64,000 nucleotides of DNA, taken from Rhodanobacteraceae bacterium. GTDB taxonomy: Bacteria > Pseudomonadota > Gammaproteobacteria > Xanthomonadales > Rhodanobacteraceae. How positions within the stretch are numbered: position 1 is the first letter of the stretch; every line of letters begins with the position of its first letter. Below, in pieces: positions 8,286 to 64,000 of this stretch. The stretch covers positions 36,248 through 100,247 of the forward strand of contig JAEUPP010000020.1 in assembly GCA_016790075.1 (NCBI GenBank), written 5' to 3'. The position numbers and the translations under genes are program-made. Under the pieces are notes generated by a model. That model saw nothing but the letters and a program-made list of their open reading frames with translations. It did no database searches and was not told where the DNA came from.

Positions 8286-8369
8286 CGTTGCCGCTCCTGG
8301 GGCTGTGCGAGTCTGCCGATGCATGCTGCAGCGCGAATTCTGTTGCCCGATGAGACGGAGTACCGAAGC

Positions 8370-9497
8370 GTGAGCCATTCGCTGCACCTGCTGCCCAATT
8401 TTTCCTCGCCGGATGCGGCGGCTTCAGCTGGGTCGGACACCGAAAGCGGGGCGTACCTGGCGTTGACGCCGGAAGCCCTCTCGGCCTTGCTGAAGGTGGC
8501 AGGGCCGGACCAACCTGTTACCTTGAAAGGCGTCGCGTCGGAGGTTTACGCGTATCCCAAGGGCAGCGTGCCGAAGGGCTACTACGGCCGGCTCGGTCTG
8601 GGTGGGGCGTCCGTCCGGTTTCGCGTGAGCGCCGAGTCGGCGCCCGCCAACGGGGAGGCCTGCGTCATCCACGGCGCGCTGACCGTCAGGCCCATCGGCG
8701 CCGGTGATCGCGACGGCGGGCAGTGGAAGGCCACTCACGAGGTGCTTCTGGTTGGTGCAAAGGTCGGCACGTGGCAGCCCGCGAAGCCGGCCAATCTTGA
8801 GGCTGAGGCGGTCCACGCGCTGCGCCGCGACGACACGCGTACGCCCCTAGCGTCCTGGGTGGCACGCAGCGGGACTCGATCCTTGCTGGTCATCGCGTCC
8901 AGCGGCGTGGCCGCCGACTTCCTCGTGGGACTCGACAAAGAAAAATCGGGCGTGGCGCTGACGGTCGTCCGCGGCCGTTTCGACGAAGCCGACGCGTTCC
9001 TGGACGTGTTCCACGGCATCGATTGGACCGGCGTGGAGGCTGTGGCCGTGGTGCGCGGCGGCGGTGGGGGGATCGACGCGGTGGGCAACTCGCCGCGGGT
9101 CGTCCAGGCACTCATCGAGCTGGACAAGCCGTTCTACGCGGCTTTGGGGCACACCGATTCCGTTTGCCTCATCGACAAGTTCGCCGACGAATCGTTCGTC
9201 GTGCCGCATGCGTTCGGGGCCGCGTTGGCGGACGCGGTGGCCGACGCGGCGGCGCGGCGCCAGCAGGAAGAAAAGTGGCAGCGCGGGCAGGCGGATCTGC
9301 AGCGGATGCGCGCCGAAGTGAACGCCGCGCGTGCGGCGCAGCAACCCGTCTCGGCGCCTGCGCCTCCGGTGGCCCAGCAGCGCGAGAAACCGAAACCGCT
9401 GGATTACCTGTTCGTCGTGCCCATCACGCCGAAGGTGCTGGCCGGTGCGGCGCTGGTGCTGTTCATCGTGTTTTTGTGGGGGCGGTACGGCGGGTGA
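8370..9497 (+). CDS. XseA-like protein with C-terminal membrane anchor
   Basis: About 375 residues. Residues 30-140 resemble the OB-fold nucleic-acid-binding domain of exonuclease VII large subunit. Residues 170-290 hold the hallmark XseA pattern: a Rossmann-like strand LLVIASSGVAADFL, then RGGGGGID (XseA: RGGGS.EDL), then GHTD with a following D (XseA: GHETD). A charged helical stretch (295-325) and a Pro-rich linker lead to one transmembrane helix at about 355-371. True XseA is longer and soluble, with extended coiled coils, so this is a shortened membrane-tethered relative. GTG 8370 has GGAG nine bases upstream; ATG 8319 is an alternative. A DNA-processing or defence role at the membrane is inference. 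Confidence 0.65.
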   Translation: MSHSLHLLPNFSSPDAAASAGSDTESGAYLALTPEALSALLKVAGPDQPVTLKGVASEVYAYPKGSVPKGYYGRLGLGGASVRFRVSAESAPANGEACVIHGALTVRPIGAGDRDGGQWKATHEVLLVGAKVGTWQPAKPANLEAEAVHALRRDDTRTPLASWVARSGTRSLLVIASSGVAADFLVGLDKEKSGVALTVVRGRFDEADAFLDVFHGIDWTGVEAVAVVRGGGGGIDAVGNSPRVVQALIELDKPFYAALGHTDSVCLIDKFADESFVVPHAFGAALADAVADAAARRQQEEKWQRGQADLQRMRAEVNAARAAQQPVSAPAPPVAQQREKPKPLDYLFVVPITPKVLAGAALVLFIVFLWGRYGG

Positions 9498-9835
9498 CGC
9501 GAGGTGTTTCCGGGGTCGGTGCACCGGACCCCGCGGGCACCCTTCGCGGCATCGATGGGAGCTGCGATCCGTTTGAAATTTGCTTGGTTCTGTTCGATCG
9601 ACCAGCCCCAACGTCAGGAGAACCCACGGATGCCGAAGTGGCTGTCCCCGTTCCTCAAGGGGCTATCGTTGGCCCGGCCTTGCCGTTTGCGTCAGCCGGA
9701 TCACCCGTTCGCCCACCGTTTGCCGGGGCGCAGTTGTTTCAAGGTGCTAAGGCGCGTCACGTGACAGGAAAATGCTAGGCCTGCCCGTTGTTAACCATGT
9801 AACAATCTACGCAATGTGGCAGCGAGGAAAGGGTC
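9498..9835. other. Gap of about 340 bases
   Basis: No convincing gene. A 45-codon frame from ATG 9630 has a good CAGGAGAA box upstream but no recognisable content. I see no clear terminator for the preceding gene. Confidence 0.3.
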
Positions 9836-10048
9836 ATGAGTTTTCCGCCAGCGGGGCGAGTTCCCAGGCAGCGCGTTCGCGTCGTTCTGGTCTGCGAAAT
9901 CGACCAACAGACAGGCGAAGTGATTTCGAGAGACTTTTATGTGGTGAGCGCGGCCTCGCCGCCGGTAATTCACGGGGGACCTTTTGGATCGCTTGAAGCA
10001 GCTACAAAGTGGATACGGGAAAACGCCAACCGTTTCGACTACTCGTAG
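9836..10048 (+). CDS. Small hypothetical protein
   Basis: 70 residues, starting at an ATG with a strong AGGAAAGG box just upstream. The sequence alternates beta-like and helical stretches (RVRVVLVCEIDQQTGEVISR, then EAATKWIRENANRFDYS), so it may be a small alpha/beta domain. No signal peptide or membrane segment. No family recognised. Confidence 0.55.
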   Translation: MSFPPAGRVPRQRVRVVLVCEIDQQTGEVISRDFYVVSAASPPVIHGGPFGSLEAATKWIRENANRFDYS

Positions 10049-10110
10049 TGTTTCGTTGCGCTCTAAGGCGTCATGTGTATCGGGTAACCAGTTATTCTTG
10101 CCGATCGCCT

Positions 10111-10374
10111 CTACTTCTCGGTGTATCCGGGAAACTCTTTTGCGTGTTCGGGATTTTGAACGTCCGTGATCAGCAGATCTTTTCTGTATCGCAACACGGG
10201 GACTACGTCGGTGCGTTGGCCGTGCCAGTAGGCGATGCATGCCTCGGTAGCCTTCGAAGCTTCCTCCACGGATTTTTCAACTGGGAGCCGATGGAGGGCG
10301 GCGATGAAGGCTTGAGTCCAGAGTTCGCTGACGGTTGTGCTCATGGGGTTCTCGGAGCTGCTTGAATGCGCCAT
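10111..10374 (-). CDS. Small helical hypothetical protein
   Basis: 87 residues from ATG 10374, which has GAGGAAAG about nine bases upstream. The N-terminal half is predicted helical (ELWTQAFIAALHRLPVEKSV, then EEASKATEACIAYWHGQ). The ribosome-binding site resembles that of the neighbouring 70-residue gene, with which it converges. A second start at 10344 is possible. No family recognised. Confidence 0.5.
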   Translation of the reverse strand: MAHSSSSENPMSTTVSELWTQAFIAALHRLPVEKSVEEASKATEACIAYWHGQRTDVVPVLRYRKDLLITDVQNPEHAKEFPGYTEK

Positions 10375-10652
10375 GCAAACAGGCTTTCCTCGGTTGTCAA
10401 GCCCATCAAACGGAAGCCTTAAGGTGTGTGCCGATTGCCCCAGGAGGTGTGCCGGAATTGCCGGTTTCGCCGGGCGTTCTGAGTGCCGACCGCGAGCAGG
10501 GGAGGGAGCCCTGGCTTGACGGCAATGGCCTGCGTTCGCGGGCGGAAAAGCTGAAGCCACAGTGCCGTGAGCGACGTTGTCGCGACTCCCGGTCTGTTTT
10601 CCGTGGCTGCTCGCCGTCTCTGGTCGCGATCACCGGCCAAGTACTGCGGGTG

Positions 10653-11666
10653 CTAGAGCTTGACGATGAAACTCGTGACGATGGACGGCTGCACGTTCGG
10701 GTGCGCCTGTCCGCCGCCGGCGGAACCCGTCGCGGCGGTGGCGTAGGTCGTCGCGCTGCCCGCCAAGTTGTTGCCGATCACCGAGCCGCTGAACGGTGGG
10801 TCGGGGTTGTCGTCCTCGCTGGCCGGTAAAGTGATGCCGGTGTGCGCGTGGCTCGGCAGTTGCGCCACCGAAAGGGTTTGCGCTTGCGCACCGCCGCTCG
10901 CGCCAAGCAGTGCGCCGTCGATGCCACTGACACCGAGCGTCAACCGATTCGCGGCAGCGCCGCCCATCGTGTCGAGTCCGACGTTGGCTCGGCCGCGCCG
11001 ATCCGGCACGGGCAGCCGCTTGTTCGCAGCAAAATCTGCATCGGCAGAGGCTCCCCGAGTTGTCGGCAGTCCGGCCGAGGTTTCAATCGGCAGCACGGCG
11101 TTGTCGAACGCCGTCCAGAGCACGCGGTAGAGCGCCAGCGTGTCCGCGTTGGCCCGGTTCGTCGCACCGGACGAAGCGCTGCCGATGGTGCGCCCGTCGG
11201 ACCAGACCCAGCCGCCCTCGGGCAGCGTCGTGCTGTCGATCGCGAGCACGACACCCGTAGGCAGCACCGATCCGCCGAGAGCCTGCAAGGCCGTCTGTGC
11301 ATAGGGGGCGGCGGTGATTTCCTGTCGGGGCGTCAGCGTGGTGAACGCGCCGGTTGACGCGCCGTCGCGAACACCGATTTGAAGGAAGACCCGGTCGCCA
11401 ACGAAGAACCCATCGCCAAAATCGAGCACGGTGGTGAACACGCCGCCGTCCACCACGACGTCATCGACCTGCAGCGGCGCGGCCAGTGCGCTCCCGGACG
11501 TCACCGCGCTGAACGGTTCGAACGCCAAGTCCACCGTCCCGTTGACGGGCGCGCCGCCGAATTCCAGGCTGCCCTGGTAGGTGAACCGCGAGGTCAGTGG
11601 AGCGGCGGTCACGCCGCACGACGCAAAGGCCAGAAAAACAAGGATGAGCAAGCGCATGGTGGGCAT
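10653..11666 (-). CDS. Secreted tail-collar-like protein
   Basis: 337 residues with a signal peptide (LLILVFLAFASCGVTAAP). The central and C-terminal part resembles phage tail-collar domains: GGWVWSDGRTIGSA, DRRGRANVGLDTMGG, and the C-terminal SHAHTG with a glycine/threonine-rich end. Such domains are also found in exported bacterial proteins of unknown role, and no other phage gene lies nearby. It is downstream of and probably co-transcribed with the 11676-11939 gene, with 9 bases between them. A degraded relative of its central part lies at 35434-35790. Confidence 0.65.
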   Translation of the reverse strand: MPTMRLLILVFLAFASCGVTAAPLTSRFTYQGSLEFGGAPVNGTVDLAFEPFSAVTSGSALAAPLQVDDVVVDGGVFTTVLDFGDGFFVGDRVFLQIGVRDGASTGAFTTLTPRQEITAAPYAQTALQALGGSVLPTGVVLAIDSTTLPEGGWVWSDGRTIGSASSGATNRANADTLALYRVLWTAFDNAVLPIETSAGLPTTRGASADADFAANKRLPVPDRRGRANVGLDTMGGAAANRLTLGVSGIDGALLGASGGAQAQTLSVAQLPSHAHTGITLPASEDDNPDPPFSGSVIGNNLAGSATTYATAATGSAGGGQAHPNVQPSIVTSFIVKL

Positions 11667-11675
11667 CTCGGTGGT

Positions 11676-11939
11676 TTACTGCTGAAAGCCGTCGCGGAAA
11701 ATGCGGTCGCTGAGCCGTCCCGGCCAGAAGCCGCCGTTGAGCCGGAATCCGCCGCCCGTGTGCGCCCCGGCGTCGTGCTGGCCCAGGGTTGCTCTGAGGG
11801 ACCAGCCGCCTCCTTGCGCTGTGGTTGAAGGCAGCGCGACGCTGCGTCGAATCCTGTAGGCCTCGTTCGGCGCCGAAATCGCGACGGTGGTTGTCAGGGC
11901 GACCAAGGAACCAAAGCACGTTTTGATGAGCGGGTGCAT
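11676..11939 (-). CDS. Small secreted protein with C-terminal RIFRDGF motif
   Basis: 87 residues with a signal peptide (residues 1-22, TCFGSLVALTTTVAISA). The mature part is glycine-rich (GGGWSLRATLGQHDAG, GGGFRLNGGFW) and ends DRIFRDGFQQ. A related short motif, RIF or RVF, two residues, then GF or GL, occurs in two other exported proteins of this window and is common at the C-termini of exported proteins in Xanthomonadales as far as I recall. It is the first gene of a two-gene operon with the collar-like protein. Confidence 0.6.
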   Translation of the reverse strand: MHPLIKTCFGSLVALTTTVAISAPNEAYRIRRSVALPSTTAQGGGWSLRATLGQHDAGAHTGGGFRLNGGFWPGRLSDRIFRDGFQQ

Positions 11940-12237
11940 TGGTGTCTCCGTGAACAGGCAACAAGCGGCAGGGTTGCCGGTTCCTGTACTCGTGCCACAT
12001 CTGGGCGAAACCTCTCAGGTTGGCGGGAAAATTCCTGAAGAGTTCCGTACGCCGGTGCCCGGTTCGGCCGTGCGTAGCCCGTTGCGTGTTCTGCCGAAGT
12101 AGGGCGTTTGACCCGGCGAAAGTTGGCTCGATCGGCGCGCGCGTATCGTCGGGCAGCCACTCTTCTTACGGCCCCGGGAAGACGACCACGGCGGTGCAGA
12201 ACCCAGCCCCCGACTTGCTCTTCACCGCGGGATCTCG

Positions 12238-13167
12238 ATGGAACGCCAGATTGCTGGAGTTGCCGGTAGTATGGCCTCGAAGCCACCAGTGATGTTCCTC
12301 ATGGACAGTTTTCGAGCGCGTGCACATCAGTGCTTGTCAGCCGCCCGGATCGAGATGGAGAGCGGGGATTCGGCTCGCCTTTCTTTTGCGGCGCTTCGCC
12401 TTCGGATGGCGCTTGAAGCGCTGACTTACGAACGCGCGCAGGCTTACCGCAACCACATCGATCCCGAAGACAGCGATGCGTGGCAGCCGAAGAAGGTTCT
12501 GGACGCCCTGTTGGCGGTCGATCCCAACGCAGACCAAGGCGGCACTTTGGCGGTTGGGCTCCAAGAGGCCTATGGCGTTCCATCTAGGAACATGAACGTT
12601 GTTGGCACGGAGCACGTCGTCAGTTTGGCCACGGTCAAGAAGCACTACGATGCCTTGGGGTCCTTCCTGCACCTGCCGACGATCAAACAACTTCGTGAAA
12701 AAGGCGACCCCAAACCTGAGTCCGTGCGCAAACACTGCGAAGCCGTGGCGGCTGCCGTTGAACGGGCGTTGTCGTCGCCCGTATGGAACGTGGTCATGTA
12801 TGGTGCAATCGACTTCAAGTGCCAGCGATGCAGCGAGCCGATCGAACGAGCGGTACCGTTGGTGCCGCATCGATTCGTGACGACGTGCCCGAAATGCAAG
12901 GCAGCTTACCGGCTGGATGGCGAAGCCGACGGCCCGGTCGCTATCACGGCCGCTGCCGCACCCGTGCGTTGCCACCATGAGGCCTGCTCGGGAGAGCACA
13001 ATTTGTGGCCGGACGAAGCGAAGCCAGGTACTTCGTGGACGTGTCGCGAATGCGGTGCGCGCTATACGCTCGTGTTGCGTACACAGCTCATTGTGGACGA
13101 GAAAAAAGAGAACGCCCAGCCTTCGCACGACGAAAATCTGGAGACGCCGCTACACGCAGCAGGGTAG
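12238..13167 (+). CDS. Hypothetical protein with two zinc ribbons
   Basis: 309 residues. The N-terminal half (about 20-190) is helical and rich in AAL/ALRMALEAL-type patterns. The C-terminal half carries two cysteine pairs of zinc-ribbon type: CQRC...CPKC at about 199-222 and CHHEAC...CREC at about 243-268. The start is uncertain: ATG 12238 gives the longest product, and ATG 12271 has GGAG upstream. It stands alone between minus-strand genes. Role unknown; nucleic-acid or protein binding is a guess from the ribbons. Confidence 0.65.
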   Translation: MERQIAGVAGSMASKPPVMFLMDSFRARAHQCLSAARIEMESGDSARLSFAALRLRMALEALTYERAQAYRNHIDPEDSDAWQPKKVLDALLAVDPNADQGGTLAVGLQEAYGVPSRNMNVVGTEHVVSLATVKKHYDALGSFLHLPTIKQLREKGDPKPESVRKHCEAVAAAVERALSSPVWNVVMYGAIDFKCQRCSEPIERAVPLVPHRFVTTCPKCKAAYRLDGEADGPVAITAAAAPVRCHHEACSGEHNLWPDEAKPGTSWTCRECGARYTLVLRTQLIVDEKKENAQPSHDENLETPLHAAG

Positions 13168-13352
13168 GCTGATTCGGGCGGACGACTGCCGTGTTGGCGC
13201 TGGCCCAATTCAGCTCCTGGCGCGGATGGCGTTTGGGGAGCTAGAGAGCACGCCGCATTTCGCCAGCCTGGAGCGGCTTGACGCGTCCCGGTGGCGCGTG
13301 GTCCGACTGGTGCGGCCGGCAGTGTTCGGGCCGATCAGCCCTCCGGCATCGC

Positions 13353-14417
13353 TCAGACCACCGACCTGAGAGCCCTTACGGTGCTCACCAACGCCCCCTG
13401 GTGCCGCACGCCCGTTTTGCCGAACACCGATTTCAAGCGGGTCCTCGCCGCGCCCGCGGTAACGCCCATTGCTGCCGCGGCTTCCGCCAGGTCGGCGCCG
13501 TCCGCCAGCCGCGCCGCCAGCTCGGCCTCCCGCGGAGTCAGGCCATACACGGTCGCCAAGGCGTGGCGCACGCCGCCGGCGTGCACGGCCTCAATGGGCT
13601 CCACGAAGACCACGGACCGGACGGACCCGAACGCCCCACCGCCGGGCAACGGGTGCATCGCCAGGTGCGCCGCCACGCGGCCGTCGCGCTCGTGCAGTGC
13701 GGCGGGTCCCGGGCCGACCGGGTGCATCGAGGCGTGGGTCGGATGCACCGGGGTCAATCGTCCGCCCTGCAGGCGCAGCAGCGTTCGGCTGCGCAGCAGT
13801 GCCTCGGCGGCGGCGTTCCACCGCGTGCAACGGCCGCGTTCGTCGAGGCAAAACACCGCGGTCCCCAGGCGGTCGAGGGCCTGCACGGCGTCCCACGCGT
13901 GGCCGTCGGCCGGCGTCAGGCGGCCCCTCAAGCGGCACGCGTTGGCCCAATGCGGCCCGAGCTGACTCAGCCACGCCCGTTCGTCCGCGCCGTACGCCCC
14001 CCGGCGCGCGGAACGGAGCAGGGTCAGACTCACCACCCGGTCCGCCGTGCGCTCGCCGACGATTCCGGCGCCGTGGTCCACGTCCATGGGGCGGAGGAAG
14101 TCGCGCCAGAACGGCGTGCGGCGCAGCCCGGCGAGGGGCAGGACGTCGTCGGGTACGACGACCGACCCGGCTGCTGGCCCCTGGCGCTCGTCCGCCGGGC
14201 GCCACGGGTTGCCCGCGGCGTGCGTCAGTTCGAAGGCCAACGCCATGTCGGCGCCCTGGCCGAAAAACGCCGGCAGCGTTTGCCGCCGCGTCGCCACATC
14301 GACCTGCAAAACCGCCGCGGCGTGGCTGCGCGTTTCGGCGCACACCCCAGCCAGAAACGCAGAAGCCCAGTCGGTTTCGCCCAGGTTTGCGAAGAGATCC
14401 CCAATCAACCGTTCCAT
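13353..14417 (-). CDS. LuxR-family transcriptional regulator
   Basis: 354 residues. A long N-terminal sensory region without a receiver-domain signature is followed by a C-terminal LuxR/GerE helix-turn-helix at about 290-350 (LTPREAELAARLADG, then MGVTAGAARTRLKSVFGKTG). The central part (about 190-280, VFCLDERGRCTRWNAAAEAL) looks PAS-like. It diverges from the BON-domain gene. A perfect 18-base palindrome sits 21 bases upstream of its start codon and is a likely operator. The ligand is unknown. Confidence 0.8.
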   Translation of the reverse strand: MERLIGDLFANLGETDWASAFLAGVCAETRSHAAAVLQVDVATRRQTLPAFFGQGADMALAFELTHAAGNPWRPADERQGPAAGSVVVPDDVLPLAGLRRTPFWRDFLRPMDVDHGAGIVGERTADRVVSLTLLRSARRGAYGADERAWLSQLGPHWANACRLRGRLTPADGHAWDAVQALDRLGTAVFCLDERGRCTRWNAAAEALLRSRTLLRLQGGRLTPVHPTHASMHPVGPGPAALHERDGRVAAHLAMHPLPGGGAFGSVRSVVFVEPIEAVHAGGVRHALATVYGLTPREAELAARLADGADLAEAAAAMGVTAGAARTRLKSVFGKTGVRHQGALVSTVRALRSVV

Positions 14418-54399: not shown

Positions 54400-54715
54400 G
54401 CGGCAAGGGTTGCCTGCGAATTCCGCGGCGGCGCCCATTGAGCATCCAGCGTCCCCAGGGCACGACGCTGGCCGAGTTCGAGCCCGTCGAGTTCATCGGC
54501 AAGCGACTATTCGAGACATTGCCCGAACCTGGCGTTTGTACTTCGTATACTCCTGAAAATTGCAGTTGATGCTGCAGAGGTGGCGTTGGCGCTGAGGCAG
54601 CAGCCCGGGATGGATGTCGCGCGCAGCTCCTGCCAGGCCGGGCCATCGGGCATCGGATAACCACGCCTCCTGTCTTTGGGTATGCTCGGCGCAACGCCCA
54701 AAGCGTAGCGCCCTT
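54400..54715 (+). other. Upstream region of the TIR operon
   Basis: No gene. A TATACT sequence at 54546-54551 could be a -10 element, but no well-spaced -35 is evident. The operon promoter probably lies here. Confidence 0.3.
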
Positions 54716-56695
54716 ATGAACCCTCGACGCTTCCGTATTGCCCTGTCCTTTGCCGGCGAAAAAAGGGACTTTGTCGAGCAAGTCGCCGATCTGCTTGCGC
54801 AGCGATTCGGGCGAGACCAGATCCTCTACGACAAGTACCACGAGGCCGAATTCGCGCGCGGCGATCTGGGCATCTATCTGCCCAGGCTCTATGGCGAAGA
54901 ATCTGACCTGATCGTACCTGTGCTGTGCCCGAACTATGACCCTAAGCGCTGGACCGGTTGGGAGTGGCTGTACATTTACAGCTTGATGACGAAGACGGAC
55001 ATGAAGCGCGTGATGCCCAGTCGCTTCGGCTTTGCACACGCCGATGGCCTGAGCCCCGCCGCGGGCTTTATCGAACTGGATCACAAGACCCCGGCGCAGT
55101 TTGTCGCGCTGATCCTGCAGCGACTGGCGCTGAACGAAGGGAAGCCTTCCGATTTCTACTGGCAGGCCGCGAGCGAGCCGCAGCAGTCGGTTATCGCTGA
55201 CGCGCCGGCACCGGAATCGTCGCTTCACCGAAAGGACAGCGCCATGTCAACGATTCAACGCACCATCGTCAGATTCGATCTCGTCCAATCCACCAGCCTC
55301 GCAGGGCTGATCGGTGAAGCCGTGGATGAGGAAGCACGCACCCGGTTGAAGTCAAAAGTGCTCGACTTCGTCGGACCGGCGCTCGAACATGCGGGATTCA
55401 ATCCGGTTCCTGCGGACGCGATGTTCTCGCTGGATCATCCCTGGTACAAATGGGAAGGAGATGGCGCGTTCCTGCAGTTCGAAGTAGCGGATGCGGCCTG
55501 CAAGTTTGCACTTGAGTTTCAGGCGCTTGCTGAGCAGCGTGCCAGCGCACAAGTGCACGGGCCAATTCGTTTTCGCATTGGCATCGCAACGGGCCCGGTG
55601 ACCGCAAGCGAGTTGATGAAGCGACTGGAGCTGGAAGGCGACGCGCTGGCCTACGCCGCGCGAGTGGAGCCGAAGTGCACGGTAGGCGCCGTTCTGATCC
55701 ATGAGTCGACTGTTCAAGCCCTGAGTAATGACTGGCAGTGGCATGTCGGGCAGCCGATTGAGATTCAGGGCAAATTGCATGAGCCGCTTTTCCGAGCCTA
55801 TGAGCTGGTGGGCCGGCTCAATGGCAACGGCGGGTTGCCGCGAAGCGAGACTGAAATCCGCGATCGCATCGCTGAAAGATTGGGGCGCGTGCAGAGAAGC
55901 TCGGACTGGTTCAAGCAGCTTGCGGTGGAGCTGGAATCTCTCCGGGCTGGTGCACCGAGCCTGCCGCGCCCGATCGAAGTCTCTGCGCTGGCCGGTTGGG
56001 TAAAGCTGGCAGCGCTATCCGAATTGCGGGCGTATTTCCATGCGTTGGATAAGACCGCGGCACCTTCCGATGAAGCGGATCGCCAACTCGCGCTGGAGCT
56101 CCTGGTACTTGCGGCCGTTCGCCACATCGACTTTACGCAAGTGCCGCACCCAGTTGACGTAGGTACCGGCCAGAATGCGCGTGCGAGTTTTCTGAACATT
56201 CCCGTGTTGAGCCACGTGCTTGCCGGTGTTTGCGCGGCGGCGCGTATGGGACTACAGATTCACGTCGGCTCGCATGCAGCCGTCGCGGGCACCGTTGTGG
56301 TGTCCATTCCGCGCCGTCGTGCCGAATTCGACACCCTACTTCTGGGGGAGCTCTATCTGGCCTTGCTCCAAACGAAGTTCGATCCGACGGTTATTGGATC
56401 AGTGACAGATAGCTCCAGGGACCGAGATGACCGCGTAGAGAGAGCTTGGCGTCCGGTGAAAACGCATCTGGAGGGATTGCGCTTTAAAGGGCGTTTCGTG
56501 GCGCTGTGTCTCAGGTTCCAGGATATGGATACTGATGAGCAACGTGATCTTGTCCTAAAGGAAGTCGCGCGGGCGTGCGACAGCCTCGTAATCGGGCTTC
56601 GGGACCGGGATCAAGGATTGGTCAACGGGCTTCCACCCGGCCATCTCGCGTCCTGGATAGAGGATCTCTTGCGCCGCATAGCCCCGGATCGCTAA
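54716..56695 (+). CDS. TIR domain - nucleotide cyclase-like effector/sensor
   Basis: 659 residues. Residues 5-140 form a TIR domain: RIALSFAGEKRDFVEQVADL at the start and RWTGWEW, where Glu83 is the likely NADase catalytic residue. Residues 178-335 resemble a class III nucleotide cyclase: IVRFDLVQSTSL with a metal-type Asp188, WEGDGAFLQF with Asp249, and RFRIGIATGPV. The usual Asn in GDAVNxAAR is Ala here (GDALAYAAR), so it may bind rather than cyclise. The last 280 residues are unrecognised. First gene of a tight operon with a MoxR ATPase and an FGE-fusion gene. An NAD-depleting defence effector is inferred. Confidence 0.78.
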   Translation: MNPRRFRIALSFAGEKRDFVEQVADLLAQRFGRDQILYDKYHEAEFARGDLGIYLPRLYGEESDLIVPVLCPNYDPKRWTGWEWLYIYSLMTKTDMKRVMPSRFGFAHADGLSPAAGFIELDHKTPAQFVALILQRLALNEGKPSDFYWQAASEPQQSVIADAPAPESSLHRKDSAMSTIQRTIVRFDLVQSTSLAGLIGEAVDEEARTRLKSKVLDFVGPALEHAGFNPVPADAMFSLDHPWYKWEGDGAFLQFEVADAACKFALEFQALAEQRASAQVHGPIRFRIGIATGPVTASELMKRLELEGDALAYAARVEPKCTVGAVLIHESTVQALSNDWQWHVGQPIEIQGKLHEPLFRAYELVGRLNGNGGLPRSETEIRDRIAERLGRVQRSSDWFKQLAVELESLRAGAPSLPRPIEVSALAGWVKLAALSELRAYFHALDKTAAPSDEADRQLALELLVLAAVRHIDFTQVPHPVDVGTGQNARASFLNIPVLSHVLAGVCAAARMGLQIHVGSHAAVAGTVVVSIPRRRAEFDTLLLGELYLALLQTKFDPTVIGSVTDSSRDRDDRVERAWRPVKTHLEGLRFKGRFVALCLRFQDMDTDEQRDLVLKEVARACDSLVIGLRDRDQGLVNGLPPGHLASWIEDLLRRIAPDR

Positions 56696-56707: not shown

Positions 56708-57745
56708 GTGTCGCGTTATCCACAACCGTACCAAAAGCTCATCGATGCCACGCAGACGCCAACGCGCTTTGACGAGAACTCGCGTTTTCCGGGTGCCGGG
56801 CACCGTTGGAGTGATGCCGAGCGCGATGCCGTCGTGCTGGCCTGGGCAAGCAGACGGCCGCTGCTGGTGCGCGGCGAGCCGGGCTGTGGCAAGAGTCAGC
56901 TCGCCCACGCGCTGGCGCAGGTGCTGGGTGTCGATATCTTCCCGGAAGTTATCCATCCGCGGTTCGAGGCCAACGATCTGCTGTATCGCGTCGACAACAT
57001 CGAGCGTCTGGCCTGTGCGCAACTGCTTGCGGTGCGCCGCTCCGGCGATGTCGACGTCAGCAAGGAAATGGACCTGGCTCGCTTCGTCAGGCCGGGTGCG
57101 CTGTGGAGGGCCATGCAGCAGACGATAGACGCAGTGCACCAGCGCTGGCCCCGGGCGGTGGTGCTGATCGACGAGATCGACAAGGCAGACGCCGATGTGC
57201 CGAACGCGCTGCTCGAGGTGCTGGGAAACCGCAGCTTCACACCACCGGGCTTTGGGACCGTCGAGTGCAGCCAGAACTCGCCGTTGATCATCATCACGAC
57301 GAACGAAGATCGCGAGCTGCCACCGGCCTTCCTGCGCCGCTGTCAGGTGCTGAATCTGGACCCGCCGCACGGGGAGGGTGAAGCCGCGTTCTGCGCATGG
57401 ATGGAGCATCGGGCGCTGGCGCATCCGCGCATCGCCGCTCTGGATCAGGACGACTTGCGGCACCGCGCGGCGAGGCAGGCACGGGCCGACCGGGAGACGG
57501 AGCGGGATCCGGAACCCTTGCTGCGCCGCGCGGCGCGGCAGGTATGGGCGGACCGCGAGACGGCGCGGGAAAAGGACCTGGGCCTGGTGGGACTCGCCGA
57601 GTACCTGGACCTGCTGCATGCGCTGGCCGAACTCGCCCAGGACGATGCGCAGCAGGCCGGCACCATGCTGGATGATCTGTCGCGCTACGCGCTGGTCAAA
57701 CACCGGGAGCTGTCGCAGCAACGGCCTGCGGTGGGCACTCCCTAG
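56708..57745 (+). CDS. MoxR-type AAA+ ATPase
   Basis: 345 residues. Walker A is GEPGCGKS at 56-63, Walker B VVLIDEIDKAD at 151-161, and sensor 1 IIITTNED near 192. Two imperfect repeats of RAAR(Q)xxADRET near 255-290 are unusual. GTG 56708 follows AAGGAG and lies 12 bases after the TIR gene; the next gene starts 3 bases after its stop. MoxR ATPases act as remodelling switches, here probably licensing the TIR effector. Confidence 0.87.
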   Translation: MSRYPQPYQKLIDATQTPTRFDENSRFPGAGHRWSDAERDAVVLAWASRRPLLVRGEPGCGKSQLAHALAQVLGVDIFPEVIHPRFEANDLLYRVDNIERLACAQLLAVRRSGDVDVSKEMDLARFVRPGALWRAMQQTIDAVHQRWPRAVVLIDEIDKADADVPNALLEVLGNRSFTPPGFGTVECSQNSPLIIITTNEDRELPPAFLRRCQVLNLDPPHGEGEAAFCAWMEHRALAHPRIAALDQDDLRHRAARQARADRETERDPEPLLRRAARQVWADRETAREKDLGLVGLAEYLDLLHALAELAQDDAQQAGTMLDDLSRYALVKHRELSQQRPAVGTP

Positions 57746-57748
57746 CCT

Positions 57749-60415
57749 ATGACCGCGCCACGGACCCGGCTTCCGGTGGGCCGCGTCGGACGCGCGGATT
57801 TGCTGCTCGCGCTGCAGGAGTTGTCGTGGACTGGCCCGGTGCTGCTGACCTCGCACGAGGCGAGCTTCGTGCGCCAGCAGGTTGTTCAGCTCGCCGCCAC
57901 GGTGGAATCGGGCGTCACCGTCGAGGCAGATCCGGAGACGCCCGCCCCCGAGCTGCCGCGCGAACCACAGGTCACGCAGGATCGCCTCCGGTTCGAGTCG
58001 CAGTGGATAGTGACCGAAGATCGCTCGCTGGCCCAGCTCGCACCGCTCGAACGCGAGGCGCCCCTTCTGACGCCGCTTGACAGCGCACAGATCAAGGCCG
58101 AACGCGATCGGGTTGGGAGCAGCGTGGTGCGTGGCCATTGGCCGTGGTTCCGGCGCCGCCTGCGCCAGGCGCTCAATCCGCTGAACCATCACCACCGGCA
58201 GCCCATCGACTTCGAGCGTCTGGGCCAGCAGCTGGCAACCGGCACGGTTCCCGAGGTGTGGCCACGCCGGCGTCTGGAACGCTGGCCGGGCGGGCTGACG
58301 CTGCTGATTGACGAACGCCCGTTGCTGGGTGTCCTGCAGGGTGAGTTCGATCTCCTGGCCAGCAAGCTGCGCCGCAGCATCGGCAGCCGCAGTGTCCGGG
58401 TTCTGCGGCGGAACTTCGGCAGTGCTGTGTTGCCGCGTACGCCGGGTCCAGGCCCGCTGCTGGTGGTCACCGACTGGACCGGGTTGCCGCCACACACGCT
58501 GCACTGGTTCAAGGAACAGCGGCGCAACCAGCGCGCGCCTCTGGTGCTGTGCCCCGAGCCGGGTGCCGGCGTCGGTGTCGAGCAGATCGCACTGGTCAGC
58601 CGGGGGCAGCAGGATCGAGGCTCGCTGGCGCCGCTGCGGGCTTTGATCGACGCCTTCGGCTACGTCGATGATCGGCTGCTGAAGGCGCTGGTCGAAGAGC
58701 AATGTCCAGGCCGGTCGAGCTGGCGCCATCTGCTCTCGCTGCTGCGGGACCCGATGATCGAACGTTTTCCTGGTGACCTCGGTTTCGGCATCACCGAATG
58801 CCGCAGCGAACTGGGCAGCGCATGCACGGAGGTGGCCAGGCTCCCTGCCGCGCGTATCGCGCGGGCCATGCAACGGATGCAGCTGCTGCATGGCCTGGAA
58901 GGTGCCACCAGCTATTACGGCGGCATGCTGCGTTTCGCCTCGCGACTCCAGAGCGTATCGCCCGCGCTGAGCCGGCAGCTGGATCTGGCGGACCACTACT
59001 TTCTGCAGCAGGTAGGGCCCAGGCTTGCGCACACACCCGATCCGGCATTGGCGCTGCGGGTCGTCCGCGCGCTGCGCAGCCAGGGTCCGTTGCGCGAGAA
59101 GGCGCGTTATGCGCAGCTGCTGGGGCAGGCGGTAGCCGTGAGCGAGCAAGAGTGGGACGCCGCGCCGCCCCAGTCCGTCCCGCGCCGCGCGTATGTGCTG
59201 AGAGCGGTTGGCAGCCAGCTCCGTGTATCACCCGAAGTGGGTGGGCCGTTGCGCGCCGCCGTACTCGCGCAAGGCCTGCAGTTGCCGGAGCAAGGCGCCA
59301 GCATGACGGCGGTGCTGGGTCACGAACGCCGGGTGGTATACCTGAAGGACTGTGGCAGCGGCGGGATCGATGGCGGCGAGCACACGCGTCTCGGCGTGGT
59401 CGCGGGCGACAGGCTGGTTGAACTCGTCCGTGTGCAGCGCCCCAGCTGGGCGCTTGGCTGGGGCCGTGATCGGCAGGGGGCTTATGTGCTGGTGCCGTCC
59501 CCGTTCGGCAAGCCGCAGCGCTTTCGCATCCCCGAGGGCGAGGGCGAACACCCGGTTGCGCCCTGGATTCCGGCCGGCGCCAGCGAAGTGCTGCAACCGT
59601 TGCCGCCAACCGCCGGAGCCAAGCTCGCGATCGGCATCGATCACTTTGGTGTATTTGTAACGGTCGAGATCAATGGTTCGACGCAGCGCCTGCGCTGGAT
59701 CGAGCCGGGTAGTTTTTTGATGGGGTCGCCCGGTGACGACGACTGGGCCTTCCGCGACGAAAAGCCGCAGCATCAGGTGACCCTCTCCCGCGGCTACTGG
59801 CTGGCCGACACTGCCTGCACCCAGGCTTTCTGGCTCGCGGTAGTCGAAGACAAGTACCCGCGCGAATCCAGCGACGATCTGCAATGCCCGGTTGAACAGG
59901 TGAGTTTCACGGAGGTGCAGCAGCGATTCTTCAGCAAGCTGCGGGCTTTGTTGACACCCCGTTCCACGTTGCGCGGGCCTCTGTTGGACTGGCGCGAAGA
60001 CAGCGACGGTGCGGAAGGCTTGCGGCCGGAGCTGCCCAGTGAAGCCGAGTGGGAGTATGCCTGCCGGGCGGGTACGTCAACCCGGTACAACGTCGGTGAT
60101 GCGCTGTCTCCAGCACAGGCGAACTTCGGGAACCGGCTAAGGCGCACGTTGCCGGTGGCCGACCTGCCGCCGAACCGCTGGGGCTTGTACGCGATGCATG
60201 GCAATGTCAGGGAGTGGTGCAGGGATGGATTGCGTGCTTACACCCGTGTTGCGTTGGTGGACCCGGAGGGGCCACAGGGTTTGAATCGTGCCGTGCGCGG
60301 CGGCTCGTGGTTCTACGGCGCGCGGGGCGCGCGTTCGGCGTGCCGCCTTGCGTACCTCGGGTCGTATCGCTTCGACGATCTGGGCTTTCGCTGGTGCCTG
60401 AGGCCGTCCAGCTAA
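57749..60415 (+). CDS. SAV_2336-like protein fused to a DGR-diversified FGE domain
   Basis: 888 residues. Residues about 130-330 contain RRRLERWPGGLTLLIDERPL and PGPGPLLVVTDWTGLP, resembling the SAV_2336 N-terminal domain found beside MoxR ATPases. The middle is helical. Residues about 640-888 are a formylglycine-generating-enzyme/sulfatase-modifying fold: RWIEPGSFLMGSPGDDDW, LPSEAEWEYACRAGT, MHGNVREWCRDG, RAVRGGSW and GFRWCL. This fold is a C-type-lectin-like scaffold. The segment between GGSW and LGFRW is the variable repeat (60311-60379), so the tip loops of the domain are the diversified face. Inferred role: target or ligand recognition for the TIR/MoxR system. Confidence 0.82.
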   Translation: MTAPRTRLPVGRVGRADLLLALQELSWTGPVLLTSHEASFVRQQVVQLAATVESGVTVEADPETPAPELPREPQVTQDRLRFESQWIVTEDRSLAQLAPLEREAPLLTPLDSAQIKAERDRVGSSVVRGHWPWFRRRLRQALNPLNHHHRQPIDFERLGQQLATGTVPEVWPRRRLERWPGGLTLLIDERPLLGVLQGEFDLLASKLRRSIGSRSVRVLRRNFGSAVLPRTPGPGPLLVVTDWTGLPPHTLHWFKEQRRNQRAPLVLCPEPGAGVGVEQIALVSRGQQDRGSLAPLRALIDAFGYVDDRLLKALVEEQCPGRSSWRHLLSLLRDPMIERFPGDLGFGITECRSELGSACTEVARLPAARIARAMQRMQLLHGLEGATSYYGGMLRFASRLQSVSPALSRQLDLADHYFLQQVGPRLAHTPDPALALRVVRALRSQGPLREKARYAQLLGQAVAVSEQEWDAAPPQSVPRRAYVLRAVGSQLRVSPEVGGPLRAAVLAQGLQLPEQGASMTAVLGHERRVVYLKDCGSGGIDGGEHTRLGVVAGDRLVELVRVQRPSWALGWGRDRQGAYVLVPSPFGKPQRFRIPEGEGEHPVAPWIPAGASEVLQPLPPTAGAKLAIGIDHFGVFVTVEINGSTQRLRWIEPGSFLMGSPGDDDWAFRDEKPQHQVTLSRGYWLADTACTQAFWLAVVEDKYPRESSDDLQCPVEQVSFTEVQQRFFSKLRALLTPRSTLRGPLLDWREDSDGAEGLRPELPSEAEWEYACRAGTSTRYNVGDALSPAQANFGNRLRRTLPVADLPPNRWGLYAMHGNVREWCRDGLRAYTRVALVDPEGPQGLNRAVRGGSWFYGARGARSACRLAYLGSYRFDDLGFRWCLRPSS
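60311..60379 (+). repeat. DGR variable repeat 1 (VR1)
   Basis: 69-nt core (23 codons) in the 3' end of the SAV_2336/FGE gene, flanked by 24 bases upstream and 23 downstream that are identical to the template. Against the template at 60747-60815, 15 of the 19 adenine positions are changed and only 3 of the 50 other positions. All 12 adenine-containing codons are altered. Confidence 0.9.
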
Positions 60416-60498
60416 GCGGAGCTTAAGGCCAGGCAGCCCGGAGGGCTGCTGCAGGGGCAGCCGGGCGGAGCCCGGCGGTGAGGGCCGCGGAGCGGCCC
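60413..60498 (+). promoter_or_regulatory. Hairpin series downstream of VR1
   Basis: Four consecutive hairpins, each with a GGA loop: TAAGC/GCTTA (60413-60425, including the stop codon), GCAGCCC/GGGCTGC (60433-60449), GCCGGGC/GCCCGGC (60460-60476), GGGCCGC/GCGGCCC (60482-60498). DGR homing needs a hairpin/cruciform just after the variable repeat. None follows the template. Confidence 0.8.
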
Positions 60499-60722
60499 GA
60501 TTACTGTCGGAGTATCGGTGGGCCAGCACGACGTTGTGATATCGGCACTGTCGCCCGAAGTGGGTGCGCAGGCCTGGTATCACCGCTTCAAGGGTGGCGA
60601 CGTCCTGTGTCCCGTTGGCGCGACGGGCATACAGGCCGTCGACACGCTGCTGATATGCGCTTTTTTTGGTGCGGGAGTGTCTATGATCGCCAGCTGTGAG
60701 GATGATCGAAACCCGCAAGCGC

Positions 60723-60838
60723 CGTGCCGTGCGCGGCGGCTCGTGGATCAACGACGCGCAGAACGCGCGCTCGGCGTACCGCAACGCGAACCACGGGTCG
60801 AATCGCAACGGCAATCTGGGCTTTCGCTGGTGCCTGAG
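60723..60838 (+). repeat. DGR template repeat (TR)
   Basis: Non-coding copy of the variable segment with a 69-nt core at 60747-60815 containing 19 adenines, mainly as AAC and AAT codons. It translates to GGSWINDAQNARSAYRNANH in frame, the Asn-rich look of classical templates. Flanks match both variable repeats until base 60838, after which it diverges (CTCATCC, where both repeats have GxCGTCC). It sits between the two FGE genes. The surrounding gap 60416-60984 holds no recognisable accessory protein (Avd) or reverse transcriptase. Confidence 0.88.
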
Positions 60839-60984
60839 CTCATCCGCTGCCGGGTGGATTCCCATGCAGTGCACGACCCGATCGTCCCTCACGAGCAGCC
60901 TGACTGTTCTGCAGGCAGGTTGCCGAACCGCAAGGCCCTGGGCGCGTTGGTAGCATCGGTGGATGCCGAGCGAAGGCCCGCCCA

Positions 60985-61815
60985 GTGGCCAACTTCGGTG
61001 TTGCCGCGGTGAACCGCTACCCGGATGTGTTTCCCCCGGCCTGGGCCAGTGCCTATGGCGATGATGCCTATGGCCTGTGGGCGGAATTGACCTGCAACGA
61101 CGCCACCCAGCGCTTGCGCTGGATAGCGCCGGGGACGTTCCTGATGGGGTCGGAGGGTGCCTTGGCTGACGAGGATGAGAAACCGCAACATCCGGTCACG
61201 CTGAGCCAAGGCTATTGGCTAGCCGATACAGCCTGCACGCAGGCTTTCTGGCTGGCCGTTGTTGCCGGAGACAATCCCAGTCATTTCCCGCAGGACCTGA
61301 ATTGCCCGGTGGAGCGGGTCAGCCTGTGGGATATCGAGACGCGCTTCTTGCCTGTCCTGCAGGCGGCCCTCGGCGAGGTCGCTCAGGTGCAGCTGCCCAG
61401 TGAAGCGCAATGGGAATACGCCTGCCGCGCAGGCACCCGCACCGCGTTTGCGTATGGCGATACGGTGACACTGGAGCAGGTCAATTACGGGGACGGTTCG
61501 TTCGCGAACCAACAGAAGAAGGAAAAGCAGCCCTTTCGCCGGCGCACCGTGCCGGTCGCCAGCCTGCCGCCCAACCCCTGGGGCTTGTACGAAATGCATG
61601 GCAATGTCTGGGAGTGGTGCAGGGATGGACGGCGCGATTACGCCGCGGCTGCGGTAGTGGACCCGGAGGGGCCACCGGGTGAAATCCATGCCGTGCGCGG
61701 CGGCTCGTGGCTCTACGACGCGCGGGACGCGCGCTCGGCGTTTCGCGGCGCGCTCCGCGGGTCGCTTCGCTTCGGCTATCTGGGCTTTCGCTGGTGCCTG
61801 AGGTCGTCCAGATAG
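60985..61815 (+). CDS. Stand-alone FGE-domain protein with VR2
   Basis: 276 residues from GTG 60985, consisting of only the FGE/sulfatase-modifying fold: RLRWIAPGTFLMGSEGALAD, LPSEAQWEYACRAGTRTAFA, MHGNVWEWCRDG, HAVRGGSW and GFRWCL. It closely follows the C-terminal domain of the 888-residue protein, so it is a second target gene. There is no SAV_2336-like part, signal peptide or membrane segment. The 5' end starts within a GC-rich region with weak AAGG ahead. It may be a separate binding subunit, or a partial duplicate that still gets diversified. Confidence 0.8.
   Translation: MANFGVAAVNRYPDVFPPAWASAYGDDAYGLWAELTCNDATQRLRWIAPGTFLMGSEGALADEDEKPQHPVTLSQGYWLADTACTQAFWLAVVAGDNPSHFPQDLNCPVERVSLWDIETRFLPVLQAALGEVAQVQLPSEAQWEYACRAGTRTAFAYGDTVTLEQVNYGDGSFANQQKKEKQPFRRRTVPVASLPPNPWGLYEMHGNVWEWCRDGRRDYAAAAVVDPEGPPGEIHAVRGGSWLYDARDARSAFRGALRGSLRFGYLGFRWCLRSSR
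61711..61779 (+). repeat. DGR variable repeat 2 (VR2)
   Basis: 69-nt core at the 3' end of the second FGE gene. Against the template, 15 of 19 adenine positions are changed and only 1 of 50 other positions. Substitutions differ from VR1 at many sites, so each repeat was mutagenised independently. Confidence 0.9.
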
Positions 61816-61820
61816 GGCGA

Positions 61821-61883
61821 GCAAGCGGAGCTTGCCCGGCAGGGCAGCCCGGAGGGCTGCCAGCGCGCGGGCGGAGCCCGCGC
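61821..61883 (+). promoter_or_regulatory. Hairpin series downstream of VR2
   Basis: Three GGA-loop hairpins: GCAAGC/GCTTGC (61821-61835), GGCAGCCC/GGGCTGCC (61843-61861), GCGCGGGC/GCCCGCGC (61865-61883). The second contains the whole second hairpin after VR1. The arrangement at both repeats suggests a conserved homing signal. Confidence 0.78.
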
Positions 61884-62001
61884 GACGCGACATGGGCCAT
61901 TGGGGCGGGTGTCCCAGGCAGCGTGGAATGTTTCTGAATTCTGCGCGGCCACGGGTTTTCCTGACGTTTTTTGCCAGGGGCGCAACGATTCGAGCCGGCA
62001 A

Positions 62002-63537
62002 CTACTCGAGCCCGTCCGCAAACACGCGTTCGCTGCGGCTGCGCGCGAGTAGCTCGAGGTAAACCTCGATGTTTGTATATCCCGGCTGGCCGAGCAGCGG
62101 CAGGGATAGTTGCAGACCATTGTTGTCGGCCGCGCCCGTGCCTAGGCCGTGGCTCGTATGTAGTTGCTCGAACGCATCGGGCAGGCCGTCTGCATCGAGG
62201 TCCGACGGCGGTGCGGGAGGTGTGTCGGGTGCGAAGTCGAGTGAGAGTGCGTCGTTCGCTGCTGGCAGTTCGTGCGGTATCGCAGGAATTGCGCCGGTTG
62301 CGACGGATGCGGCATAGCGCCGGTCCATCGTGTCGTGTGGCTGCGCGCCGACCTCAAGCGGCAGGTCGCGCGGCAGGCGGTCGCTGCTGCGGTAACTCAC
62401 GGCAGGAAACACGTGCCGCTCACTGCGCCGCAGCGCGGTACCGGAACTCGTGTTGCCGCCGGGTTCCGGCGGGAAGTCGTTGCAGCAATAAAACAGTGCG
62501 TAGTCGGTCAGCGGCGCGAACCGGTCAATATGGTTGTCATGCACATACAGCATGTTCTGGCTTGGAGGCTCGCCGGTACCTGTGCCGAGCAACGTGAATG
62601 CGGCGAGTCCGTAACTGAAACCGGCCCGAGTCAGGAAACGATTGCCGACGAGATTGAGCTGCACGCGAAACGGGCCATTGGTGCTGCTGGCGTCGACCCA
62701 GGGGCCGTAGTCGATGAAATAGCCTGGGTCGAAATAGAGGTTGTTGCTGACTTCGATTCGCAGCGGAATGTTCTGACAGGCCGTGATGTCGCGCGGCGGA
62801 ATGTCGTCCTGCGCGCTGGATTCGCAGCTAATTTCGGGCAGGCGGCCTTTGATGCGGTACCAGAGATTGCGTACGAGGCTGATGCCGTCGAGAGGAAACA
62901 GCGTGTTGGAATAGTTCAGAAGTGCGCCGCCATAGGTGGCGTGATCGCCGACAGTTTCGGCGACTATGGAGTTCTGCAATGTGACATGCGACGCCCAGCT
63001 CAGCTGCACGGCTTCGTCGCTCGCGTTCGAAAGCGATACGTGATCCAGCATTGCCCGGCGTATGCCGTCCAGGCGCAAGGCATCGTCGGCACCAGGGCAG
63101 TCTCCCGGCGGGTTCAGCTGGCAGGCCGGGCGAGAGCGCAGATGGCGCACGATCAGGTTGTCGCAGTTGACGCCGCCATAGTGAGTGCCGCAGACGAGTC
63201 CGCGCACGGTAATCCCGCCGGGAGAACTCTGGCCCGCGATCGTCACGTCGCCGGCGCGTACGGTCGCTATGGCATCGATGACGCCGCTGACTTTGAACAG
63301 CACCGTACGCGGACCGCTCTGGCGCAATGCCCAGTTCAGGGAGCCGCTGTTCCCGCCGCCGATCATGCCGGCCGGATCGGCGGCCAGCGTCGTCACATAG
63401 AGCACCCGGCCGCCTCGCCCGCCGCTGGCGACAGCGCCGAAGCCCTCTGCACCCGGAAAACTCGGCAGTGATTGCGCGGATGCCTGTAGCGCAGCGCCGA
63501 TCAGCAAAGCGGGAATGAAACCAAGAAGGTTGGCCAT
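62002..63537 (-). CDS. Secreted pectate-lyase-like protein
   Basis: 511 residues with a signal peptide (LLGFIPALLIGAALQASA). The mature N-terminus FPGAEGFGAVASGGRGGRVL is the signature of PL1-type pectate lyases and related right-handed beta helices, continuing with VTIAGQSSPGGITVRG and VSLSNASDEAVQLSWASHVT. A C-terminal linker with a calcium-type repeat (SDLDADGLPDAFEQLH) precedes the end ERVFADGLE. ATG 63537 follows AGGACAAGG. It would cleave polygalacturonate or a similar polymer outside the cell. Confidence 0.82.
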   Translation of the reverse strand: MANLLGFIPALLIGAALQASAQSLPSFPGAEGFGAVASGGRGGRVLYVTTLAADPAGMIGGGNSGSLNWALRQSGPRTVLFKVSGVIDAIATVRAGDVTIAGQSSPGGITVRGLVCGTHYGGVNCDNLIVRHLRSRPACQLNPPGDCPGADDALRLDGIRRAMLDHVSLSNASDEAVQLSWASHVTLQNSIVAETVGDHATYGGALLNYSNTLFPLDGISLVRNLWYRIKGRLPEISCESSAQDDIPPRDITACQNIPLRIEVSNNLYFDPGYFIDYGPWVDASSTNGPFRVQLNLVGNRFLTRAGFSYGLAAFTLLGTGTGEPPSQNMLYVHDNHIDRFAPLTDYALFYCCNDFPPEPGGNTSSGTALRRSERHVFPAVSYRSSDRLPRDLPLEVGAQPHDTMDRRYAASVATGAIPAIPHELPAANDALSLDFAPDTPPAPPSDLDADGLPDAFEQLHTSHGLGTGAADNNGLQLSLPLLGQPGYTNIEVYLELLARSRSERVFADGLE

Positions 63538-64000
63538 GACCTTGTCCTGAAAGACGTGCCTGTTCCAGTTCAAATGTGTTCCAGTTCGAGCGTGTTCCAG
63601 TTCAAGCGCAAAAGAGCCGCGGGGCAGGACTGCGTGTGGTATCAGTCGGGGCAAGCGCCGGGGGCGCCGGACACGACCGGCTGGCAGCGCGCTTGGGCCA
63701 TGGCCGCATTGTCATGCTCCATTGGTGGCAGACGCCTGGGAAAATGCCGGGGTCAGTCCTCGGATTTTTCGGAGTTGTGGGTGGCCGCAGGTGAGGTGCT
63801 GTCGTGTTCCGGCCGCCGCGACGCTGCAGGTGGCGCACGCCCGCCAGGCGCTGGCCGCCGTCACTACCCGCTGCGCCGTGTGCGCTTGCGAGGTGCCGCC
63901 GAGGCAGCAGGAGCGGCGGTTGCGCTGAAATGCGTCCGTGCCGTGTGCTCGAGCATCTGGTTCAGGCAGCCAGGCCGCTGCATCCGCGCTATCCACCAGG
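63538..64000. other. Window edge, no gene supported
   Basis: Short frames on both strands, none recognised. The minus strand stays open from 63996 to 63712, but its content looks random. A gene could enter from beyond the window. Confidence 0.35.

Follow-up and report, generated by a model that had tools for sequence, protein, structure and literature searches.

A 64,000-nucleotide stretch from a Rhodanobacteraceae bacterium (assembly GCA_016790075.1, contig JAEUPP010000020.1, positions 36,248 to 100,247, forward strand; here called the window) carries the template-and-target half of a diversity-generating retroelement (DGR). A template repeat (TR1) lies between two variable repeats (VR1 and VR2), which form the ends of two FGE-fold genes, and is followed by a structured RNA element, R1. 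A complete DGR is not claimed, as searches for its reverse transcriptase (RT) found no intact DGR-type RT in the assembly; the locus works, or once worked, like a DGR. The favored reading, given a probability of about 0.6, is a recently active DGR of a lineage with an HRDC-type accessory protein, in which the RT was deleted or replaced and both sensors are now frozen. The sensors are probably either frozen or driven by an enzyme still to be found.

A template repeat, two variable repeats and an RNA element

The 69-nt cores of TR1, VR1 and VR2 (Table 1) align without gaps. Among the 19 adenines of the TR1 core, 15 are substituted in VR1 (eight to T, six to G, one to C) and 15 in VR2 (seven to T, five to G, three to C), while only 3 and 1 of its 50 other bases differ (Fisher p 4.5e-9 and 1.0e-10). 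Recomputation thus returned the counts that a first-pass annotation of this DNA had reported. None of the six T in the core is substituted, and the divergence is therefore strand-specific. Similarity extends to about 123 nt, over which 16 of 21 adenines are substituted in each VR, against 5/102 non-adenines in VR1 and 3/103 in VR2. No non-adenine site of the core sets the TR apart from both VRs, and some of the non-adenine differences are located at the 3′ end of the repeat, the usual place for TR and VR to differ in DGRs (the initiation of mutagenic homing sites IMH* and IMH). In a stretch of 40 codons spanning the core, 20 of the 21 adenines occupy codon position 1 or 2, adenine substitutions cannot create a stop codon, and each target could take no more than 7.0e11 protein forms. 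A filtered scan of the window for adenine-biased repeat pairs returned the TR1/VR1 and TR1/VR2 pairs only. This pattern is the signature of mutagenic retrohoming.

The three segments could instead be diverged copies of a lectin-gene end whose differences fell on adenines by chance or through base-composition drift. Drift from low to high GC would indeed remove adenines, but it is hardly credible here: adenine is replaced by all three other bases, every T is kept, chance or drift as the source of the pattern was rejected on the Fisher test, and the downstream RNA element and hairpins match those of RT-bearing DGR loci.

VR1 and VR2 each form the 3′ end of an open gene of the FGE family (PF03781, E 2e-34 and 1e-37), which together with the adenine pattern bears out the proposal of one DGR template with two FGE targets. 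Target gene 2, for which an alternative start is possible at GTG 61009, matches in sequence the solved Treponema variable protein 2y3c. A Pfam search of the N-terminal extension of the 888-aa target found no domain. TR1 is positioned between the two target genes inside an 85-aa frame that scores 22.7 bits against PF03781 (cut-off 23.3); this frame is no intact FGE gene, in line with the earlier placement of the middle copy outside any intact gene.

R1 starts about 90 nt 3′ of TR1 and in this lineage consists of an outer and an inner helix separated by an internal loop, which has GUA on one strand and GAA on the other; the GGUA/GAA loop is one we take to be bulged-G/sarcin-ricin-like. A covariance model was built from 13 relatives with the window held out. 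In the window it scored 46.5 bits at R1 (E 2e-7; second-best 17.9 bits), and in the genome, where 150 of 4811 first-pass candidates were scored, R1 was the sole convincing match (E 1.8e-5), followed by matches on contigs C79, C70 and C61 of at most 23.5 bits (E 1.1 for the 23.5-bit match). A second held-out locus, L060 (Rhodocyclaceae metagenome-assembled genome HKST-UBA162, 104-1970), scored 49.1 bits. Its R1 lies 3′ of a copy of an FGE-gene end that differs from the gene's VR at 16/23 adenines and 8/87 other bases (110 nt). The L060 contig starts with a transposase-like frame directly upstream of this TR-like copy, possibly an insertion sequence beside a DGR template.

Within the 13 relatives, 90.3% of pair cells are standard pairs compared with a shuffled mean of 73.2%, both partners vary in 10 of 12 pairs, and the covariation score of 0.597 exceeds the 0.269 of shuffled alignments and the maximum of 0.237 with slid partners. 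As these sequences were chosen by eye for the motif (L283 deviates, with GUCG for GUAG), the pairing counts are biased towards it, and the held-out tests are the stronger evidence. An earlier motif scan that required an outer stem of at least 9 bp returned two unrelated places in the window and missed R1, whose unbroken stem is 7 bp.

R1 matches no Rfam family. It was not found, at the sensitivity used, near Avd-type and other RTs at 13 loci (best 19.1 bits, E 0.17), and 72 loci with RT relatives in viral contigs gave no match. In the Bordetella phage BPP-1, the spacer 3′ of the TR folds and recruits RT and Avd, according to the available part of the report (PMC12875486); by analogy, R1 may be the counterpart of this spacer RNA. 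Searches of the open-access literature found neither an R1-like element in this lineage nor sarcin-ricin motifs in DGR RNA.

Both VRs are followed by tandem GGA-loop hairpins (Table 1; expectations from 2000 dinucleotide shuffles per region, stem 6 or more). A genome sample of 169,710 bases held 14 GGA-loop hairpins and one TCC-loop hairpin with stems of at least 6 bp. Ten of these 15 come after a VR-type gene end, in the window and on contig C15; lone ones occur elsewhere, for example at 28521, and a lone hairpin of the GGA/TCC class also lies inside VR2, at 61719. Across related loci, a GGA hairpin lies within 130 nt of 13 of 24 VRs compared with 1 of 12 TRs. At other DGR loci, most of them of the Avd type, none of 12 VRs has a GGA hairpin and six have a GACT-loop hairpin. 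The DGR feature of a hairpin or cruciform after the VR and not after the TR is present here, with a GGA loop unlike the published GRNA tetraloop.

Table 1. Features of the locus, in window coordinates
Feature	Position	Strand	Basis
693-aa gene with N-terminal TIR-like and nucleotide-cyclase-like domain, putative operon effector	54614..56695	+	Pfam
MoxR-like AAA ATPase	56708..57745	+	AAA_5 PF07728, E 1.1e-15
888-aa target gene 1: long N-terminal extension, C-terminal FGE (C-type-lectin fold) domain with VR1	57749..60415	+	Pfam
VR1 (core 60311-60379)	60287..60409	+	Alignment to TR1, adenine bias
Four tandem GGA-loop hairpins after VR1 (stems 5, 7, 7, 7 bp)	60413..60498	+	3 with stem of at least 6 vs shuffle mean 0.0015
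Spacer; place of accessory and RT genes in relatives, no convincing remnant	60499..60722	.	Comparison with related loci
TR1, template repeat (core 60747-60815)	60723..60845	+	Adenine pattern, codon analysis
R1, covarying RNA element (outer helix CUGGGCG/CGCCCAG, internal loop GGUA/GAA)	60934..60990	+	Covariance model without the window
276-aa target gene 2, FGE domain only, with VR2	60985..61815	+	Pfam; match to 2y3c
VR2 (core 61711-61779)	61686..61809	+	Alignment to TR1, adenine bias
Three tandem GGA-loop hairpins after VR2 (stems 6, 8, 9 bp)	61821..61884	+	3 observed vs shuffle mean 0.0035

The two genes upstream of the first target complete a putative conflict operon of TIR, MoxR and FGE genes, which may sense phage or another antigen. 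The 693-aa protein matches Guanylate_cyc PF00211 (32.3 bits, cut-off 21.9) and, slightly below the cut-off of 28, TIR_2 PF13676 (27.5 bits). The MoxR-like ATPase falls below the cut-offs of bpMoxR PF20030 (24.1 bits, cut-off 27) and of NF047784 MadB_ATPase. A MoxR ATPase adjoining an effector gene, a feature of the MoxR ‘ternary’ conflict system, is present (with TIR_2 slightly below cut-off), and no window protein has a Pfam match to the vWA and VMAP components of that system. Beyond the locus, shortly before the contig end, a 550-aa frame (62002-63654, minus strand) has by eye the look of a secreted pectate lyase.

Related loci and the missing reverse transcriptase

A search of GTDB genomes with the 888-aa protein yielded 80 loci that were kept, four of which (L058, L059, L061 and L078) have adenine-biased repeat pairs that pass the filter; L060 was added afterwards. 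In L058 and L061, from Candidatus Accumulibacter, the order is VR, HRDC accessory, RT with IGALTSQ and YMDD motifs, TR and VR, so that accessory and RT sit between VR1 and the TR. The HRDC domain is Pfam-confirmed in the L058 accessory only, the other accessories being tblastn homologues. In A. meliphilus (L059) a TR lies between two VRs with an accessory remnant and no RT, while L078/L173 has accessory, TR and VR, with the RT absent.

In a tree of 20 DGR RTs and one outgroup, ten RTs including those of L058 and L061 form one branch (support 97/95), and the RT of L054, here called RT L042, forms a separate branch with five others (100/100). At 8 of the 10 loci of the L058 branch, at least two adenine-biased VRs lie on both sides of the TR; the other two, L064 and L282, have no adenine-biased pair. 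Most loci of DGR clade 5A also have two targets, one short and one long, according to the available portion of Dore et al. 2024 (PMC10907252). The arrangement of one template serving two flanking targets, which the first-pass annotation had singled out as odd, is therefore usual in this lineage. R1 alone is no proof of the L058 RT branch, since L177, one of the sequences in the R1 model, has R1 while its RT lies outside the branch, with no accessory match in the stretch fetched.

FGE genes on Azospirillum brasilense Sp7 plasmid p4 (L250, 9314-12755) comprise three FGE domains, the best 51% identical to target 2. They were rejected as DGR targets, as no adenine bias was found among them, and no annotated RT is nearby. 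These genes, possibly fossil DGR targets, adjoin the transposition genes TniB and TniQ. By eye, L250 and the window after VR1 share a hairpin-like string around CCGATTACTGTCGG.

The 5.62-Mb genome assembly consists of 83 contigs and has a completeness of 95.65%; the window is the end of contig C52. Neither the RVT_1 profile nor two DGR RTs used as queries, RT L042 (the complete DGR RT of genome G370) and RT L058, found an intact DGR RT in it. RVT_1 gave three matches: two, L001 and L002, best fit the group II intron RT model (L001 at 289.1 bits, slightly below the cut-off of 300), and L003 lies in a frame with two stops. With RT L042, contig C78 gave a C-terminal match of 66 residues, and the other matches were the two group II RTs and a weak one; a weak match to the RT C-terminus is found at C44:104727 (E 0.015). 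RT L058 returned group II RTs only. The annotated absence of RT and Avd from the window was confirmed, and in the assembly a DGR-type RT is represented only by the C-terminal fragment on C78. No credible Avd match was found in the genome (best E 0.74), and no intact accessory gene: one significant match, interrupted by a stop, lies in a frame of 612 aa, about the size of RecQ, and another has E 0.27. Among 369 genomes of the class, the accessory query matches 46 at 1e-10 and four below 1e-20; the 42 weaker matches, in frames of 600-900 aa (save one of 268 and one of 369), are presumably RecQ. Of the features of a complete DGR, a DGR-type RT (IGxxxSQ motif) near the TR and an accessory gene (Avd or HRDC) are lacking here.

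The spacer between the VR1 hairpins and TR1 matches none of the related loci compared. Candidate RT remnants at 60499-60745 were only weak matches and were not accepted (the best listed had 12 aa and E 0.094 without composition correction), and the same holds for the matches listed in L059 at 8942-9655. A plasmid origin of the spacer was rejected, as there was no plasmid match. Neither a sigma-70 promoter nor an intrinsic terminator was found at 60380-61000, and hexamers inspected by eye upstream of several TRs are not put forward as a finding.

Two other DGR-type loci are found in the genome. On contig C78 (L025, 1-3772), a template of an Avd-type lineage, TR2, lies at about 213-331; TR1 and TR2 belong to two different RT lineages. 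C78 162-542 is homologous to L054 of G370 (4539-4919), and from 540 the homology resumes at L054 6308. C78 thus lacks about 1.39 kb that is present in G370, including Avd and RT residues 1-293, and the RT remnant consists of residues 294-359 only. The NACHT-FGE target on C78 (NACHT by Pfam) has a VR with 13/24 adenine and 1/95 non-adenine changes relative to TR2. A second TR2 target, NACHT-like by eye, lies on contig C7 (L027, 221-3031), with 17/24 and 1/95 changes, respectively. The VRs on C78 and C7 have GACT hairpins and those of the window GGA hairpins, in agreement with their lineages. A joined C7 and C78 locus was rejected, there being no exact suffix-prefix overlap longer than 10 nt. 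The C78 contig begins, by eye, within a transposase-like frame.

The locus on C15 (L026, C15:15000-34999; 7106-13378) encodes a MoxR-like AAA protein, a 938-aa FGE frame and a 284-aa FGE target, with a trypsin-like protein upstream (19.2 bits, below the Pfam cut-off of 20.6). The 177 nt between the FGE genes contain GGA hairpins as well as a frame of 23 codons similar to the N-terminal end of the accessory (best 26.1 bits, compared with 22.3 for the best of 294 shuffles with a match). No RT was found at C15, no adenine-biased repeat pair passed the filter in L026, and no TR was detected. Three loci of this genome are thus without an intact RT in cis.

An isolated RT C-terminal fragment also occurs in G370 (L055, C10, 4842-5015), a genome with a complete DGR on C41, and RT truncation may be common. 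Among 197 genomes of the family, the RT fragment is found in its own genome only, and TR1 has matches at E 1e-6 in nine, including its own; the other eight (L034-L041) are partial, span 54-73 nt and all belong to one other genus. As neither is found in the seven same-genus genomes listed, the system looks acquired, judging by this distribution. In phages, the RT fragment had a single weak match, to a protein annotated as RNA-directed DNA polymerase.

Loss, supply in trans or a mixed assembly

In the proposed mechanism, TR1 RNA with R1 downstream would have been copied by a cognate RT that misreads adenines, and the cDNA would have replaced the 3′ ends of the two FGE-fold sensor genes, with the hairpins after the VRs as a guide. 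The accessory and RT genes between VR1 and the TR would later have been deleted or replaced, and with no intact DGR RT in the assembly, both sensors would stay in their last state. The loss looks recent, given open genes, an intact R1 and the lack of any non-adenine core site that separates the TR from both VRs. The parallel loss of RT at C78 and C15 is counted in its support.

Several points weigh against frozen sensors. The genome is a draft and the window stops where its contig does, 2.2 kb past VR2, so an RT could have gone unassembled. The non-adenine differences of 5/102 and 3/103 (3/50 and 1/50 in the core) compare with 0-3 per about 100 at loci with an RT in cis, and the non-adenine purity of the VRs does not tell a dead element from an active one. 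An intact R1 and a TR free of private core changes also fit use in trans. The locus could be non-autonomous but live: an RT (with its accessory), encoded either in sequence missing from the assembly or on a plasmid contig that was lost, would copy TR1 RNA via R1 and still diversify both sensors. This is unlikely, though R1, TR and hairpins are all intact and trans diversification has been inferred for Thiohalocapsa PB-PSB1 (source seen in part). In the genome of the RT-less L078/L173, contigs C412 and C403 carry RTs of the L058 branch, and the RT-less L059 genome has RTs outside that branch (C27 and C99). Yet the 95.65% complete assembly contains no such RT, and loss is favored because TR1 and TR2 belong to two RT lineages: rescue in trans would need two missing RTs, or one promiscuous enzyme serving both.

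A mixture in the assembly or strain, with the RT present at the locus in part of the cells and the deleted version retained by the assembler, is quite improbable. Variants with intact and lost RT were found to coexist in long reads, according to the available text of Dore et al. 2024 (PMC10907252), and C78 starts in a transposase-like frame, a usual cause of contig breaks. Against this, the spacer between VR1 and the TR is continuous, its 60499-60722 part lacks a match in the related loci compared, and the deleted form would have to have been retained at all three loci.

Loss of the RT, the favored reading, also enters a more far-reaching proposal that is tentative and, taken as a whole, doubtful. 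R1 would be the docking domain for RT and accessory on template RNAs, and a TR with R1 a portable, non-autonomous template; this bacterium would have shed the RT at every detected DGR locus, in two RT lineages, fixing its sensors, or would rely for diversification on an RT gained and lost with a mobile element.

A large published DGR survey started from the RT gene and required an imperfect repeat no more than 1 kb away (PMC8144416, seen in part), an approach that passes over RT-less loci. With R1, orphan templates can be sought independently of any RT, and R1 is also a testable candidate for the RT-recruiting RNA domain of this lineage. Three DGR-type loci with no intact RT raise the question of whether bacteria switch off targeted hypermutation once their sensors are set, or supply the enzyme in trans.

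Comparison with known systems

Like the present locus, the DGR of Bordetella phage BPP-1 combines adenine mutagenesis between TR and VR with a hairpin after the VR and an RNA element 3′ of the TR. It differs in having one hairpin with a 4-nt GRNA loop, Avd instead of HRDC, and an RT (PMC3240598 and PMC12875486, available in part). The DGRs of Treponema denticola share with this lineage an HRDC-domain accessory and have an FGE-type variable protein, TvpA (2y3c), but they have core modules with an RT and lipoprotein targets (PMC4891356, available in part).

By architecture, in the absence of an RT to place in a tree, the locus matches the clade 5A form of MoxR conflict systems. The available portion of the clade 5A description (PMC10907252) reports, for Thiohalocapsa PB-PSB1 DGR 8 and its relatives, a MoxR ATPase gene that precedes a target whose N-terminal extension has no domain and whose C-terminal domain is of the lectin/FGE type. 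The second target there is short and consists of the lectin domain only, TIR or trypsin-like effectors lie nearby, and the clade 5A variant of the MoxR system is also without the vWA domain. RT-less loci are known from that work (DGR 4 and DGR 5), and arrays of repeats resembling miniature inverted-repeat transposable elements replace some RT genes (Dore et al. 2024, PMC10907252). RT-less DGR loci, some with targets inferred to be diversified in trans in Thiohalocapsa, are thus already in print. The present genome differs in having three loci and no intact DGR RT in its assembly, and R1 and the GGA hairpin arrays were not found in that portion of the clade 5A description. For R1, and for a genome without an intact RT at any of its detected DGR loci, no earlier report was found in the literature searched.

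The Accumulibacter loci L058 and L061 share with the window the order VR, (HRDC accessory and RT), TR, R1 and VR, and L058 also has MoxR and a long first target upstream. They differ in having kept accessory and RT, and their FGE domains are 45-51% identical to those of the window. In Accumulibacter meliphilus (L059), as here, a TR with R1 lies between two VRs with GGA hairpins, a TIR effector and MoxR stand upstream, and the RT is absent; it differs in retaining about the first 57 residues of the accessory, in a genome that has RTs outside the branch.

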